35,194 bases of DNA. Source: Pseudomonadota bacterium (GTDB lineage: Bacteria > Pseudomonadota > Gammaproteobacteria > Burkholderiales > Burkholderiaceae_C). Below, in pieces: positions 24,861 through 34,914 of this stretch. Below the pieces are notes generated by a model. It was not told the origin of the DNA, ran no database searches, and saw only the letters and a program-made list of their open reading frames with translations. Position 1 is the stretch's first letter; each line of letters opens with the position of its first letter. The position numbers were made by a program, and so were the translations under genes. The stretch spans positions 1 through 35,194 of the forward strand of contig JAKCDM010000024.1 of assembly GCA_021841865.1 (NCBI GenBank), read 5' to 3'.

Positions 24861-25829
24861 TCACAGCGAGATCAGTCGCTGCTCCCCCGGTTTCATCACC
24901 GATACCTGCAGCGAAGGCGCGATCTGCGCGGCGGCTTGCCGGAATTCGGCGCCCGCCTCGGTTCCCAGCACCAGCCCGTTGTGCGCGTAGTGCACCGGAA
25001 TCGCGTGCCGGATTCCCACCCATGCGCTGGCCCGCGCAGCGTCCTGCGGTCCCATCGTGAAGGGGCCGCCGCCCACGCACACGATGCCCAGGTCGGGCTG
25101 GTAGCGCTCGCCGAGCAGCCGGATGTCGCCGAACAGGTCGGTGTCGCCGCTGAGGTAGACCCGAACCCCGCCGATGTCGAGCATGAAGCCGGCCGCGGGA
25201 TAGGCATGCAGGTTCGAATGCAGCGCCGGGACCAGGTGCGCGCTCATCGCGCCGTGGCTCGACACCCCGCCGAAATTCATCGCGTTGCCGCCGTTGACCA
25301 CGATCTTCGCCGGGTCGAGTCCGGCCTGGCGGAAGTTCGGGATCAGGCCCGCGCGCAGCAGGTCGCTCTGGCCGGTGGTCTTCACCGGCAGGCCGGCATC
25401 GCTCAGCGCCTTGAGCATCTCGAAATAGTCACCCATGTGGTCGCCGTGGTCGTGGGTGAGCAGCACGAACACCGCGTCCGGCTTCTTGCCCGCGACGTAG
25501 GCCGCGAAACCCCTGGCACTGGCGAACTCGGGAGGCTTTTTCACGCCGAATCGATCCCAGCCGGCGTTGTTCCAGATCCAGGCGTCGCCGTAGGCGATCT
25601 GCTTGTAGTCGGGAGTGGCGATCTCGACCACGCCTCCACCCAGCCAGCGCACCAGCAGCTTGCCGCCCGGGCGCGAGGATTTCTCCAAGCCCGCTCCGGC
25701 GGGCTGCGCCGACGCGCTGCGAGCGAGCGCGATCGCTCCCCCCAGCGAGAAGCTGCCGCGAACAAAATCACGGCGCCCGATGCCATCGCCTGCCGAATCC
25801 GGTTCCTGAGTTGTGCCTTGCGAATCCAT
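24861..25829 (-). CDS. Tat-exported metallo-beta-lactamase-fold hydrolase
   Basis: 322 aa. The N-terminus carries a twin-arginine signal (GRRDFVRGSFSLGGAIALA) ending near ARSASAQ, so the protein is exported folded to the periplasm. The MBL core shows the metal motif LLTHDHGDH (HxHxDH), a later histidine in SHGAMSAHLVPALHS, the aspartate in VYLSGDTDLFGD and a final histidine in AIPVHYAHNG. The pattern resembles UlaG/UPF0173-type lactonase-like hydrolases; the substrate is unknown. The ATG at 25829 with AGGGAG upstream is chosen over a longer version (25910) that would bury the Tat signal. The 189 bp before it contain nothing recognised. Confidence 0.9.
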   Translation of the reverse strand: MDSQGTTQEPDSAGDGIGRRDFVRGSFSLGGAIALARSASAQPAGAGLEKSSRPGGKLLVRWLGGGVVEIATPDYKQIAYGDAWIWNNAGWDRFGVKKPPEFASARGFAAYVAGKKPDAVFVLLTHDHGDHMGDYFEMLKALSDAGLPVKTTGQSDLLRAGLIPNFRQAGLDPAKIVVNGGNAMNFGGVSSHGAMSAHLVPALHSNLHAYPAAGFMLDIGGVRVYLSGDTDLFGDIRLLGERYQPDLGIVCVGGGPFTMGPQDAARASAWVGIRHAIPVHYAHNGLVLGTEAGAEFRQAAAQIAPSLQVSVMKPGEQRLISL

Positions 25830-29192: not shown

Positions 29193-29381
29193 TCAGGGCG
29201 TCTCGTCGATCCAGCGCACCTGCGGGTCGTGCCGCAGGTGTGGCGGCTCAGGCGCGCGCGGCCGGCCGACGATGATCGGCACCACCGGAACCCAGCCCTC
29301 GGAAAGGCCCAGCAGCTCACGGCCCGCGGCACTGCGCAGGCAATCCTGGGAGAGCCCGAGCGCGGCGCACGGACCCGCGTA
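29193..29381 (-). pseudogene. 3' remnant of a nitroreductase
   Basis: About 62 codons and a stop match the C-terminus of FMN-dependent nitroreductases: LGLSQDCLRSAAGRELLGLS and EGWVPVVPIIVGRPRAPE, then DPQVRWIDETP. The usual order, a glycine/cysteine-rich turn, a long helix, 'LGLPEG..PVAPIIVGHP' and a 'P-E-I-R-W' ending, is preserved. Upstream of about 29381 the frame has no related sequence and no suitable start, so roughly two-thirds of the gene (FMN-binding N-terminus) is missing. The break sits about 190 bp before the RloA-like gene and probably marks where foreign DNA entered or a deletion ended. Confidence 0.75.
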
Positions 29382-29570
29382 TCGAGTATCGGCGCGTGTC
29401 CGGCACGCGTGCTCCGCGCGATGCGACGCCAGCTGAGCTGCATCGCATGGGGCCGGATCGCTGCGCCAACAAAAAATTGACCCTTGAGTCACATGCGCCC
29501 CCTGCATTTGGATAGACTATTCCAATCTCAGACGATTTTTCGTCCGAAATGCGCCAAGGGACCTATCTCC
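29382..29570 (+). other. AT-richer leader of the RloA/RloB-like pair
   Basis: The gap contains an A-tract followed by TTGACC near 29477, a short inverted repeat TTGGA-N8-TCCAA (29508-29525), and GACG-ATTTTT-CGTC hairpin-like sequence at about 29531-29544. A promoter for the downstream ATPase is expected here, but no -35/-10 pair with proper spacing was found. Composition differs from the flanking housekeeping genes. Confidence 0.35.
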
Positions 29571-30764
29571 ATGCTGCACAGCTACGCGGTCACCAACTTC
29601 CAGTCCTTCCTGGATCGTGTGGAGGTGGATCTGGTCGTCAACCAGCGCGCCCCCGATACGGACTGGATCACGACCTGCGCAACCGGCCAACGCGTCTCCA
29701 AGGTGATGGCTGCGATTGGAGCGAATGGATCCGGCAAGACGGCACTTCTCAAGCCCCTGGCTTTTCTGGGTTGGTTCTTCACTTCCTCTTTCCAGCAGGC
29801 GGCGCCTGGCGCAGAACTCCCGATCCATCCGCATTTCGCGAACACGGCGTCGCCCGTCGAGATCGATTGCACGGCTGACTTCGATGGCCATCTCTGGCGA
29901 TACGTGCTGCGCTGCACGCCGCAGCGCGTGCTGCACGAAGCCCTTTACCGCAAGCACGACCGCTTCCGCTATGTGTTCACGCGGGACTGGAACGAGCTCG
30001 ACGGCGCCTATGCCATCCGGCAGCAAGAGTTTGGCCTTGACCACGCCAAGGCGGCCGAGGTGCGTCCCAACGTCTCCCTGATCTCCTGGGCGGCGCAATA
30101 CGGCGTACCGCTCGCGCTTCGCATGGCCTCAACATCCGTCTACAGCAACGTCGCTTTCTCAGGCCGTGTGAACAAGGGGGACATCGGCGTGCTGGAGGCC
30201 GCCAAGGGCTTCTTCTCGAACCAGGCGTTGCGCTCCGAAATGGAGCGCCTGCTGTGCAGCTGGGACCTTGGGCTGTCGGCCGTCGAAATCCGGGAGACCG
30301 AAGTTGTCCAGAACCTGTTGGCCCCCAACCAGCAGCAGAAGATCTGGATGCCCTTCGGGCACCACAGGAGCCATGGCCAGGAGTACGTCCTGCCACTTCT
30401 ATTGGAGTCCAACGGCACGAAGAGTGCGTTCTCCCTGCTCTCGTTCCTGCTGCCCGCGCTGAACACGGGGGGCCTGGCGGTCGTTGACGAGTTCGAGAGC
30501 GACCTGCATCCGCACATGCTGGACGCGATCCTGGGTCTGTTCGCCAGTGAGAAGACCAATCCGCGCGACGCGCAGCTCGTATTCACCAGCCATGCCCTGG
30601 AGATCCTGAACCTGCTGGACAAGCGCCAGGTCATGCTGGTCGAGAAAAACGAAGATTGCGAAAGCCATGCCATCCGCCTGGATCAGATGGAGGGCGTACG
30701 GCCGGACGTCAGTCTGTACGCCAAATACATGGCGGGCGCATTCGGCGCGGTGCCCAACCTCTGA
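29571..30764 (+). CDS. AAA15/RloA-like ATPase, candidate defence protein
   Basis: 397-aa ABC/OLD-type ATPase (COG1106-like). Walker A GANGSGKT at 50-57 follows a typical opening strand (YAVTNFQSFLDRVEVDL); the signature-like LLESNGTKSAFSLL lies near 277-290; Walker B is LAVVDEFESDLHP with D306/E307; and the switch histidine H341 is in VFTSHALEIL. The start at 29571 has AAGGGA about 10 nt upstream. Its stop overlaps the RloB-like gene by one base (TGATG). ATPase plus RloB pairs occur as AbiLi/AbiLii and as RloA/RloB beside type I restriction genes, where they act or are thought to act against phages. Codon use is visibly less GC-biased than in neighbours, suggesting recent transfer. Confidence 0.87.
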   Translation: MLHSYAVTNFQSFLDRVEVDLVVNQRAPDTDWITTCATGQRVSKVMAAIGANGSGKTALLKPLAFLGWFFTSSFQQAAPGAELPIHPHFANTASPVEIDCTADFDGHLWRYVLRCTPQRVLHEALYRKHDRFRYVFTRDWNELDGAYAIRQQEFGLDHAKAAEVRPNVSLISWAAQYGVPLALRMASTSVYSNVAFSGRVNKGDIGVLEAAKGFFSNQALRSEMERLLCSWDLGLSAVEIRETEVVQNLLAPNQQQKIWMPFGHHRSHGQEYVLPLLLESNGTKSAFSLLSFLLPALNTGGLAVVDEFESDLHPHMLDAILGLFASEKTNPRDAQLVFTSHALEILNLLDKRQVMLVEKNEDCESHAIRLDQMEGVRPDVSLYAKYMAGAFGAVPNL

Positions 30765-31273
30765 TGGCTGCAAGGCGCATGGCTCGCAAGCAGTACGAGA
30801 CGCTGCTGTTGGTAGGCGAGGGCGAGACCGAACAGGCATTCCTGAGTCACGTCAAGGCGCTGTACGCGCCACGCGGCTGCGGACTTGCCGTCAAGGTGAT
30901 TTGCGCAAGGGGCAAGGGAGCGGCACATGTCGTGGATACGGCGATTCGACACAGCCGATCCATTGCCTACGACACCGTGGCGGCGCTGCTCGATACGGAC
31001 ACCGATTGGGGCCCCGGCGTGGAGCAGCGTGCTGCCGCACATGGCGTCCTGGTACTCAAGTCGGACCCGTGTTTCGAGGCCATGATGTCGCGAGCCATCC
31101 AGCAGCCCGCGGAAGGCACCGTCGAGGAATTGAAGAAGCGCTTCCATCCGCACGTCCGGGGGGACGGACTCGTCCCGCGAAACTACGAAGTGACTTTCCA
31201 TGACGCGACCTTGCAGGCAGCTCGCCGCATCGAGACAACGCTCGACCTCCTTCTCCGGCTGCCACGACAGTAG
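30764..31273 (+). CDS. RloB-like TOPRIM-fold protein, partner of the AAA15 ATPase
   Basis: 169 aa. LLLVGEGETEQAFLSHVKAL gives the family's E-G-x-T-E motif (E19, E23), AALLDTDTDWG gives the acidic D-x-D (D77, D79), and LKSDPCFEAMMS corresponds to the RloB 'S-x-P-C-F-E' block. The Glu plus Asp-x-Asp arrangement is that of TOPRIM-type nucleases, so a metal-dependent nuclease effector is plausible. The ATG at 30764 overlaps the ATPase stop (TGATG); an in-frame ATG at 30779 with AAGG just upstream is an alternative. The protein is slightly shorter than typical RloB (about 200 aa) but appears complete. Third-position GC is again lower than in the flanks. Confidence 0.85.
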   Translation: MAARRMARKQYETLLLVGEGETEQAFLSHVKALYAPRGCGLAVKVICARGKGAAHVVDTAIRHSRSIAYDTVAALLDTDTDWGPGVEQRAAAHGVLVLKSDPCFEAMMSRAIQQPAEGTVEELKKRFHPHVRGDGLVPRNYEVTFHDATLQAARRIETTLDLLLRLPRQ

Positions 31274-31336
31274 CTTCATCGTCCGGCTCCCTCCAGCAAC
31301 CAGCACCTGCAACGGCCGGGCCAGAGCCAGCCGCAC

Positions 31337-31537
31337 CTACGCGGTGTGCATCACCGCCGCCCTCCTCCCGGATGCGCAAAAGCCCGAGGGACCGAACATG
31401 CGAATCAGGCTCTTCAGCGACGAGCCGATCTCGGCGCCGAGTCGTTCGAAGCCCGCGGTGGCCTTGATGGAGTCGCGCAGGATCACACGTCGGCTGCCCG
31501 CTTCGCCACTCGGCATGGCTTCGATGCCATCCTCGAG
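31337..31537 (-). pseudogene. Degenerate HTH antitoxin-like fragment
   Basis: The minus frame reads LEDGIEAMPSGEAGSRRVIL then RDSIKATAGFERLGAEIGSS and LKSLIRMFGPSG. This is close to the core of addiction-module HTH antitoxins/regulators ('LRDYINATVGFE.LA..T....KSL.RML...GNP'). The expected C-terminal 'GNP...NL' helix is replaced by unrelated residues and a stop, and the likely N-terminus (GKFPAAL-like) continues in another frame upstream, so at least one frameshift or deletion has occurred. It is read as a dead toxin-antitoxin remnant. The stretch 31274-31691 otherwise has no gene. Confidence 0.6.
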
Positions 31538-31691
31538 CGGCGCGTCCACCGCCCGCCGGCCAGAGCGGCCGGGAACTTCCCGCTGGCGTTCGCGTCCAAC
31601 GCAGCATGCACTCCCGTGTCGAACCCCGGTGTGGCGCAAGCGCGTGCCACGGCGTCGCCGTCGCGGCCAAAGCTGCAAACAGCGCGGCATC

Positions 31692-32462
31692 ATGATCGCG
31701 CCGCAGTTCGTGGTGCGCGTGTCTCTGCGGCGCGACGCCATCGCATCCTTCGATCGCTACCCCTTGTGCATTCCCGCGATTCGATCCCTGGGCGATTGGG
31801 AACTGCACCCCAGGGTCACGTTCGTGATCGGCGAGAACGGCTCGGGCAAGTCCACGCTGCTCGAAGCCCTTGCCGTTTCACTCGGATTCAACCCCGAGGG
31901 AGGCTCGCGAAACTTCCGCTTCGGCACCCGCGCGTCGCACTCCGAACTGCACCGGTTCATGCGCGTGGCCAAGGGCCTTCGCCGCCCCAGGGACGGTTTT
32001 TTTCTGCGTGCCGAGAGCTTTTTCAACCTGGCCACCGAGATCGAGCGCCTCGACTCCGGGCCCGCGTCGGGCCCCCCCGTGATCGCCTCCTACGGCGGGC
32101 GCCCTCTTCACGAACAATCGCATGGCGAATCTTTTCTCGCGCTGATGATGCATCGGTTCCGCGGAAACGGCATCTACATCCTCGATGAACCGGAAGCCGC
32201 GCTGTCGCCTCAGCGCCAGCTTGCGATGCTGTCCCGCATGCATGACCTCGTGCTCGCCGACTCTCAGTTCATCGTCGCGACGCATTCCCCGCTGCTCATG
32301 GCGTACCCCGACGCATGGATCTACGCCTGCTCTGCGGATGGACTGGCACGGATCGAATACGCCGAAACCGAGCACTACCGGATCACGCGCGACTTTCTCG
32401 CCAACCCGGAGCGGATGCTCCGGGTCCTGCTCGATCGCCCGACCCCGCGCCATGGTCCCTGA
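31692..32462 (+). CDS. AAA family ATPase, COG3910 type
   Basis: 256 aa, full family length. Walker A is FVIGENGSGKSTLLEALA, followed by the family-specific GFNPEGGSRNFRFGTRASHS and PRDGFFLRAESFFNLATEIE. The ABC signature is HEQSHGESFLALM, Walker B is YILDEPEAALSPQRQLAML, and the switch histidine is in FIVATHSPLLMAY. The C-terminus (TEHYRITRDFLANPERML) is also conserved. COG3910 ATPases are widespread single genes of unknown role; they resemble the OLD/RecF-like ATPase fold. The start at 31692 gives the normal N-terminus but has no visible ribosome binding site. GC content is back to the chromosomal level, so this gene is probably resident rather than part of the RloA/B insert. Confidence 0.87.
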   Translation: MIAPQFVVRVSLRRDAIASFDRYPLCIPAIRSLGDWELHPRVTFVIGENGSGKSTLLEALAVSLGFNPEGGSRNFRFGTRASHSELHRFMRVAKGLRRPRDGFFLRAESFFNLATEIERLDSGPASGPPVIASYGGRPLHEQSHGESFLALMMHRFRGNGIYILDEPEAALSPQRQLAMLSRMHDLVLADSQFIVATHSPLLMAYPDAWIYACSADGLARIEYAETEHYRITRDFLANPERMLRVLLDRPTPRHGP

Positions 32463-33882: not shown

Positions 33883-34914
33883 GTGGAACTGAAAACCATC
33901 CTCACCGGCATCACGCCATCCGGCACGCCACACCTTGGCAATTACATCGGCATGATCGAGCCCGCGGTCGCCATGAGCGCCGAGGACGGCCGGAACTGCT
34001 ACTACTTCATCTCCGACCTTCACGCGCTGGTCAAGTGCCACGACGCCGAGCACGTCCAGCGTTTCACGCTGGAAATCGCCGCGGCATGGCTCGCGCTCGG
34101 CCTCGACCCGCAGCAGGTCCTGTTCTATCGTCAGTCCCGCGTTCCGGAAATCGCCGAGCTGCACTGGATGCTCAGCTGCGTCACTCCGAAGGGATTGCTG
34201 AACCGCGCGCACGCCTACAAGGCCCTGCGCGAGCGCAACACGACCGGCGGCGCGGACCCGGACACCGACGTGTCGCTCGGCCTGTTCTCCTACCCGGCGC
34301 TGATGGCGGCCGACATCCTGCTGTTCGACGCGGACTTCGTTCCCGTGGGCAAGGATCAGGTGCAGCATGTGGAAATCGCACGCGACATCGCGGGCTCCTT
34401 CAACGCCCGCTACGGAGTGCAGTTTCGTCTTCCCCGCGCGATGGTCGGCGACGCGCAGAGCCTTCCGGGCCTGGACGGCCGGAAGATGAGCAAGAGCTAC
34501 GGCAACACCATTCCGATCTTCTGTCCGGTCGACGAGTTGCGCCGATCCATACGCAAGATCAAGACCAGCTCCCTGCCGCCGGGAGAGCCTAAGGACTGGC
34601 GCTCCTGCACGCTGTTCGAACTCTACCGCGGCTTCGCCGAGGCGGACGAGATCTCATCGATGATGCGCCGCTACGAGGCCGGCATCGGGTGGGGCGAGAT
34701 GAAGGACATCCTCGTCGGCACCATCGAGCGCCACCTGGCCGGCCCAAGGACTCTGTACCGGGATTACCTGGAGCATCCCCAACGCATCGAGGCTGTCCTG
34801 GAACAGGGCGAAGAGCGCGTTCGCCGCATCGCCCATGCGCGCATGCAGGGGATCCGGCGAGCCGTTGGCTTGCGCCACCCTGTCTGCGCGGCACCCGCCG
34901 CCATTGGTCGCTGA
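33883..34914 (+). CDS. trpS: Tryptophanyl-tRNA synthetase
   Basis: 343-aa class I aminoacyl-tRNA synthetase charging tRNA-Trp. The HIGH-type motif is TPHLGNYIG in ILTGITPSGTPHLGNYIGM; the KMSKS loop is DGRKMSKSYGNT; GKDQVQHVEIARDIA and LFSYPALMAADILLFDADFV complete the tryptophan pocket. It is of the short type common in Xanthomonadales and some Betaproteobacteria (about 335-345 aa) rather than the 400-aa type. Translation starts at GTG 33883, preceded only by TTGAGAA, a weak site. Upstream, 33720-33882 shows no T-box or leader peptide. Its place among accessory genes raises the possibility that it is a second copy, which the window cannot decide. Confidence 0.95.
   Translation: MELKTILTGITPSGTPHLGNYIGMIEPAVAMSAEDGRNCYYFISDLHALVKCHDAEHVQRFTLEIAAAWLALGLDPQQVLFYRQSRVPEIAELHWMLSCVTPKGLLNRAHAYKALRERNTTGGADPDTDVSLGLFSYPALMAADILLFDADFVPVGKDQVQHVEIARDIAGSFNARYGVQFRLPRAMVGDAQSLPGLDGRKMSKSYGNTIPIFCPVDELRRSIRKIKTSSLPPGEPKDWRSCTLFELYRGFAEADEISSMMRRYEAGIGWGEMKDILVGTIERHLAGPRTLYRDYLEHPQRIEAVLEQGEERVRRIAHARMQGIRRAVGLRHPVCAAPAAIGR

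Follow-up and report, generated by a model that had tools for sequence, protein, structure and literature searches.

A probable AbiL-type, RloA/RloB-like gene pair in a toxin-antitoxin-rich variable region of a Burkholderiales genome

Do the two overlapping genes near the right-hand end of contig JAKCDM010000024.1 (assembly GCA_021841865.1, Burkholderiales) form an anti-phage system and, if so, of which kind? This stretch of 35,194 nucleotides, called the window here, is contig C29 of a 3.45-Mb genome of 212 contigs that is 92% complete. A first-pass annotation made from the letters of the window had proposed that an AAA ATPase and an RloB-like TOPRIM protein form a defence pair inserted between broken genes. 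Judging from its sequence and that of its relatives, the pair is probably an AbiL-type (RloA/RloB-like) two-gene anti-phage system that was gained horizontally and now resides in a toxin-antitoxin-rich variable region.

The gene pair and its family assignment

The pair and the sequence that precedes it are laid out as follows.
29445-29570, forward strand: presumed 5' region of the pair, not homologous to any of the relatives compared
29571-30764, forward strand: ATPase (AbiLi/RloA-like AAA, OLD/ABC-type), complete open reading frame of 397 aa; Pfam AAA_21, PADLOC AbiLi
30764-31273, forward strand: RloB-like protein (AbiLii/RloB-like, predicted TOPRIM nuclease), complete open reading frame of 169 aa; Pfam RloB, PADLOC AbiLii

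As the first-pass annotation had it, the two open reading frames (ORFs) overlap by a single base, with the TGA stop of the ATPase and the ATG start of the second gene, whose product we call the effector, sharing base 30764. A search of the window's genome with the effector gave the effector itself as the single match, and a promoter scan of 29200-31800 returned no sigma-70-like promoter.

The ATPase matches the PADLOC AbiLi model PDLC02335 over protein residues 1-397 with an expectation value (E) of 3.1e-68, far ahead of its match to the PADLOC AriA model (1.8e-36). Among Pfam models it matches AAA_21 (1.3e-24) and, under that model's cut-off, AAA_15 (1.8e-5), and its best matches among PDB sequences are PtuA proteins, over the C-terminal part of the ATPase. 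The Walker A motif lies at residues 50-57 and is followed by D306/E307 and H341, while E279-S280-x-G282-T283 is presumably a signature-like motif. The effector matches both PADLOC AbiLii models (PDLC02337, 4.5e-8; PDLC02338, 1.1e-5) and no AriB model, so the relatedness to AbiL or RloA/RloB that had been claimed is borne out by profile search. It also gives a partial match (5.9e-5) to the GajA model in PADLOC at model positions 367-453, which we take to be the GajA TOPRIM domain. Among 38 aligned effectors, Pfam RloB is matched by 37, PDLC02338 by 38, PDLC02337 by 37 and the GajA model by 30, and an hhalign profile comparison with five RloB proteins (one from a phage, four from plasmids) gave a probability of 99.9%. 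An NCBIfam scan of the ATPase and the effector produced no match over a cut-off. With E19 and D77-x-D79 as TOPRIM-type metal residues, the effector is a predicted TOPRIM (OLD-type) nuclease. It belongs to a branch of short RloB proteins of about 165-180 aa; that branch is real, as the suggestion of a possibly distinct subtype would have it, but the second AbiLii model of PADLOC, PDLC02338, already matches all 38 of the aligned effectors.

Pairing and conservation across relatives

Genome contigs scanned with the ATPase alignment yielded 72 loci, and four loci on viral contigs bring the related loci to 76. In 68 of the 72 genome loci the ATPase is followed by a match to an effector profile; two of the others (L108, L110) end at a contig edge inside the ATPase, L103 has no match, and L055 retains by eye a short effector remnant only. 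All four viral-contig loci have an effector, which in L112 is split across two frames; the scores of L111 and L112 equal those of L085 and L089, sequences with which they may be identical. Likewise, in an order-wide sample of 399 genomes that includes the window's own, 24 genomes had the effector, at 25 places, and 24 had the full-length ATPase (over 300 bits), also at 25 places, with the two side by side at 24 of these 25 ATPase places. One further effector, in G383, adjoins a weakly matching ATPase.

Conservation was measured in an alignment of 58 members, namely the window and 57 complete pairs, from which cut, broken and partly matching effectors and the viral loci had been dropped. In the ATPase, K56, D306, E307 and H341 are each present in 58/58 members, and in the effector E19 is kept in 56, D77 in 57 and D79 in 56. 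The motif residues thus stand where the first-pass annotation had placed them and are near-invariant. Pairing is near-obligate and both active sites are conserved. The distance matrices of the ATPase and the effector are correlated (rho 0.90), a value reached by none of 500 permutations. The ratio of nonsynonymous to synonymous divergence (dN/dS) against the copy in G009 is 0.10 for the ATPase and 0.14 for the effector, rough values given a dS over 1; against four same-genus copies, again with dS over 1, it is 0.10-0.15 and 0.14-0.22, respectively. As read from these sequence comparisons, the pair is under purifying selection.

Horizontal gain and the flanking regions

The GC content of the pair is 62.7%, where 1.7-kb stretches of the window have a median of 69.5%, and the twelve GC-lowest such stretches all overlap the pair, in agreement with the lower GC bias claimed at the outset. 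Same-genus copies are likewise GC-poorer than their own flanks. Far from all relatives carrying the pair at native GC content, the effector occurs in 5 of 59 other relatives: G009, G010, G014 and G015, which are 4 of the 27 other same-genus genomes, and G049 from the same order. In a tree, the window copy groups with Trinickia and with two same-genus metagenome-assembled genomes (MAGs), ZJ4 and YS1, in a supported set (96/95), outside of which fall two further same-genus copies, those of G014 and of the DX2 MAG. Settings of the copies vary: the pair lies near a tRNA-Arg gene in G009 and G010; in G014 (L036, 1659-9452) its homologue lies by eye next to type III restriction-modification (R-M)-like ORFs, an OLD/UvrD-like (Gabija-like) pair and conjugation genes; and in L038 it lies, again by eye, next to TIR-like and type I R-M-like ORFs. 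Stand-alone copies that carry the annotation 'RloB domain-containing' or 'RloB family' occur on Stenotrophomonas phage BUCT708 and on Vibrio, Photobacterium, Klebsiella and Sphingobium plasmids, some of them of 5 kb; a viral scan and a plasmid search with the effector alone gave no match. Taken together at the level of sequence, the pair was apparently gained horizontally.

To the left of the pair, two features adjoin the presumed 5' region.
29202-29360, reverse strand: what is left of a nitroreductase gene at its 3' end, residues 129-181 of a 183-residue reading
29360-29444, reverse strand: sequence that in G012 lies upstream of the nitroreductase gene; final stretch of left-flank homology ahead of the pair

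What remains of the nitroreductase, whose G012 counterpart matches Pfam at 1.1e-32, is the 3' third that had been described. Relatives were compared for an empty site with an intact nitroreductase, as the first-pass annotation had proposed. The pair is absent from beside the AraC-type gene in all twelve same-genus loci that have this neighbour (one of which, L031, is little informative, its contig ending about 0.45 kb after that gene), and the nitroreductase aligns almost end to end beside it in four of the twelve (L023, L025, L027, L029), with L030 having it 4-5 kb away. G005, whose AraC-type gene is the closest to that of the window (97% protein identity), also lacks the nitroreductase at this place. 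The nitroreductase deletion junction is at 29359/29360, where homology resumes with G012 (29360-29444) and shortly after with G005 (29376-29444). Insertion of the pair into the nitroreductase was rejected because this junction differs from the homology edge at 29444. Since G005 also lacks the gene there and the junction is not the edge of the pair, loss of the nitroreductase need not stem from arrival of the pair. Both flanking genes are indeed remnants, but the notion that an insertion broke them is not supported as it stands, deletion and pair edge being separate on the left.

To the right of the pair lie the following features.
31337-31741, reverse strand: decayed helix-turn-helix (HTH) antitoxin-like fragment, homologous core 31382-31546, type named by eye
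31692-32462: small AAA protein (AAA_21/AAA_15) of 256 aa, with a 75% DNA match in G002:C22
33598-33707: antitoxin C-terminal fragment, homologous to an HTH_3 protein of L149 that adjoins a HigB-like toxin
33883-34914: tryptophanyl-tRNA synthetase (TrpRS)-like gene (Pfam tRNA-synt_1b), within the toxin-antitoxin region

The first of these had been called a frameshifted HTH antitoxin-like fragment; it is a decayed gene of that kind, but one truncated to the middle of the protein and broken at both ends here, with whole frames in L149, L151 and L152, and Pfam gave no match to it. The small AAA protein is probably a separate ordinary gene. A Gfo/Idh-type oxidoreductase and a ribbon-helix-helix protein are also present, and pieces of the flank recur, reordered, in several same-genus genomes, which marks it as a toxin-antitoxin-rich variable region. 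The TrpRS-like gene recurs whole or in part at G002:C44, G006:C137, G018:C19, G010:C9, G013:C65, G017:C140 and G015:C129; some of these genomes also have a more diverged match (about 70%) at another place, which may be the housekeeping copy, and the window gene is perhaps an accessory TrpRS.

We also observed a structured repeat, about 100-150 nt long, with two hairpins, one of them terminator-like, after various toxin-antitoxin genes in L149:5496-13182 (G002:C44), L150, L151, L152, L153 and L022. It has a single orientation within each contig looked at, and the one copy folded gave a z score of -4.9. At E 1e-4 it occurs in 12 of 28 same-genus genomes with up to 7 copies each; in a 200-genome family sample under stricter filters it was found in one genome, of the same genus, and a plasmid search for it gave no match. 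The repeat could be a cassette boundary. By eye it is not a classical attC, having no GTTRRRY/RYYYAAC ends. Beside the pair, a half copy is found just to the right (31360-31391, reverse strand, E 0.011) and a chance-level match just to the left (29495-29518, reverse strand, E 1.1). A covariance model of the repeat found no credible copy in the window (best E 0.17, 25660-25734) and none in the window's genome at E 1e-4. Given the missing model copy and the weakness of the two flanking matches, the repeat was rejected as carrier of the pair. Matches to the integron integrase model TIGR02249 pass its curated cut-off in three (G014, G001, G023) of the 28 same-genus genomes, which include the window's own; split or stop-bearing matches occur in G006 and G026, and the 92%-complete genome of the window has none over the cut-off, attC sites not having been searched with a proper model. 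With no such integrase and with repeat ends unlike the attC motifs, an integron cassette is not supported for the pair.

Likely mechanism, alternative explanations and known systems

The likely mechanism is one transferred from work on AbiL, PARIS and AAA:TOPRIM toxin-antitoxin pairs, with protection by the pair and toxicity of its effector both putative. An oligomer of the ATPase would bind and restrain the TOPRIM nuclease, a phage trigger would change the ATPase, and the freed nuclease would cut RNA, most likely tRNA, or possibly DNA, such that translation and growth would stop before phage release. In PARIS, according to the part of the report covered here, AriB is held by a hexamer of the ATPase and, once a phage trigger has released it, cuts tRNA (PMC12409363). 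The covered part of a second report describes Fusobacterium AbiLii as toxic in E. coli (PMC3985639). In that of a third, AAA plus RloB-domain pairs are already described as AbiL-like, AAA:TOPRIM combinations appear as toxin-antitoxin pairs, the toxin of one having an RloB domain, and a legend places the C. algidicarnis RloB-domain (D44) pair among the AAA-neutralised pairs in toxicity neutralisation assays (PMC10440598).

A toxic effector under the guard of its ATPase is also suggested, as weak evidence, by the pattern of effector breakage. By eye, the effector is split or incomplete in L044, L048, L070, L071, L082, L089 and L094 and reduced to a remnant in L055, which makes 8 of 72 loci, a count in which L070 and L071 may be one event and L094 lies near a contig end; the ATPase is whole in 69/69 loci where no contig end cuts it.

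A number of points weigh against the assignment as an anti-phage system of this type. The loci were gathered through their ATPase, and the broken effectors are possibly MAG errors, or natural variants. G381, which shares its start coordinate with L055, carries an ATPase without an effector and is the sole such case in the 399 genomes. That count left out 23 weaker ATPase matches (75-212 bits), which are probably other AAA families because only the one in G383 adjoins an effector match. The window effector scores under the Pfam RloB cut-off (5.1e-6; 27.2 bits against 31.5), PDB sequence searches with it gave no credible solved-structure match, and its predicted fold comes from the RloB and part-GajA profiles and the motif residues. 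An RNA target is proposed by analogy only. As far as the covered parts of the reports go, Lactococcus AbiLii is non-toxic in E. coli and Fusobacterium AbiLi does not rescue AbiLii toxicity (PMC3985639), a role of AAA pairs in abortive infection or defence is put forward as speculation, and no hits came from a phage screen of one AAA pair, whose toxin is of another kind (PMC10440598).

Could the pair instead be an accessory of restriction-modification, of the R-linked ORF kind, orphaned from its operon? We regard this as quite unlikely. In flanks of at most 6 kb, many of them cut short, one HsdM query found an HsdM-like gene at 8 of the 76 related loci, 6 of these 8 also having an HsdS-like gene; in L063 and L065 about 100 bases separate the end of HsdS from the start of the ATPase. 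A Mod query matched at 2 of the 76, and L036 is the pair with type III R-M-like neighbours. Set against this are the remaining 68 of 76 loci, on flanks that are often short, the stand-alone copies on phage BUCT708 and 5-kb plasmids, and the window's own genome, where a search limited to PF02384 and PF01555 found no HsdM-type (PF02384) match and one PF01555 methylase match on contig C114 rather than C29. For these two families, and in a genome that is 92% complete, the claimed absence of accompanying R-M genes is upheld. Because HsdM-like genes flank some loci and the window's genome has no HsdM-type match, the same family occurs both with and without R-M genes; the pair of the window is stand-alone with respect to R-M, as proposed, but this is not a defining trait of the family.

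A plain addiction module, that is, a toxin-antitoxin pair with no defence role, would fit the surrounding toxin-antitoxin remnants, the breakage of effectors beside whole ATPases and the presentation of AAA:TOPRIM pairs as toxin-antitoxin pairs in the covered part of PMC10440598. We consider it unlikely, the best profiles being those of AbiL, a phage-abortive system, although the addiction and defence readings overlap and these data do not separate them cleanly. That the pair is a decayed, non-functional acquisition, like the remnants on both of its sides, is highly improbable considering that both ORFs are whole, the motif residues are kept and dN/dS against the four same-genus copies is 0.10-0.22. 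A PARIS variant is hardly credible: the ATPase does match the AriA model, but AbiLi is far better and the effector matches RloB/AbiLii models. PARIS was rejected, with no AriB model found for the window effector or among the families of the 38 aligned effectors. A more elaborate proposal makes the short-RloB branch a separate AbiL subtype, with a translation-blocking, tRNA-cutting effector held by the ATPase, that travels in the genus as a module of toxin-antitoxin arrays punctuated by the genus-specific, same-orientation, ~100-nt structured repeat, a cassette-like arrangement other than a classical integron; it is very unlikely, and the covariance model's failure to find a credible copy in the window counts against it.

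An AbiL-type, RloA/RloB-like anti-phage pair thus remains the probable reading. Such pairs are known on chromosomes, plasmids and phage, and the literature covered gives toxicity and neutralisation data, not a trigger or target. Being compact, with near-invariant active sites and relatives whose effectors are broken, this pair is a handy case for asking if RloB proteins cut tRNA as AriB does and if the ATPase is both antitoxin and sensor.

Among known systems, Septu and the retron PtuA supply the nearest solved-structure sequences to the ATPase, but the partner here is RloB-like, whereas PtuB is given as an HNH nuclease in the covered part of PMC10440598. Gabija and the OLD nucleases share the logic of ATPase plus TOPRIM, and the effector weakly matches part of the GajA model; unlike in Gabija, the two functions lie here in two genes, and the Pfam-scanned neighbours are AraC-type, AAA and Gfo/Idh-type, with none UvrD-like. 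PARIS likewise keeps the ATPase and the TOPRIM-type nuclease in separate genes and its AriA model matches, but the effector is RloB-like and matches no AriB model. The NetFlax pair of C. algidicarnis, AAA (D29) with TOPRIM_OLD/RloB (D44), has by the description in the covered part of PMC10440598 the same domain pairing, but comes from another phylum. RloA/RloB, the R-linked ORFs of type I R-M operons, are resembled in the Pfam RloB matches (37/38) and in relatives that adjoin hsd genes; in the strict sense the name implies a type I R-M linkage, whereas the window pair has no R-M gene beside it. The AbiL system of Lactococcus (PADLOC AbiL) has the same order of an ATPase gene followed by an RloB-like gene, and both of its PADLOC models match; the likeness runs via these models rather than via the Lactococcus sequences, and the window effector differs in being of the short branch. 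The pair is a sound yet ordinary member of the AbiL kind, and the models of PADLOC already include the short-RloB branch to which it belongs.

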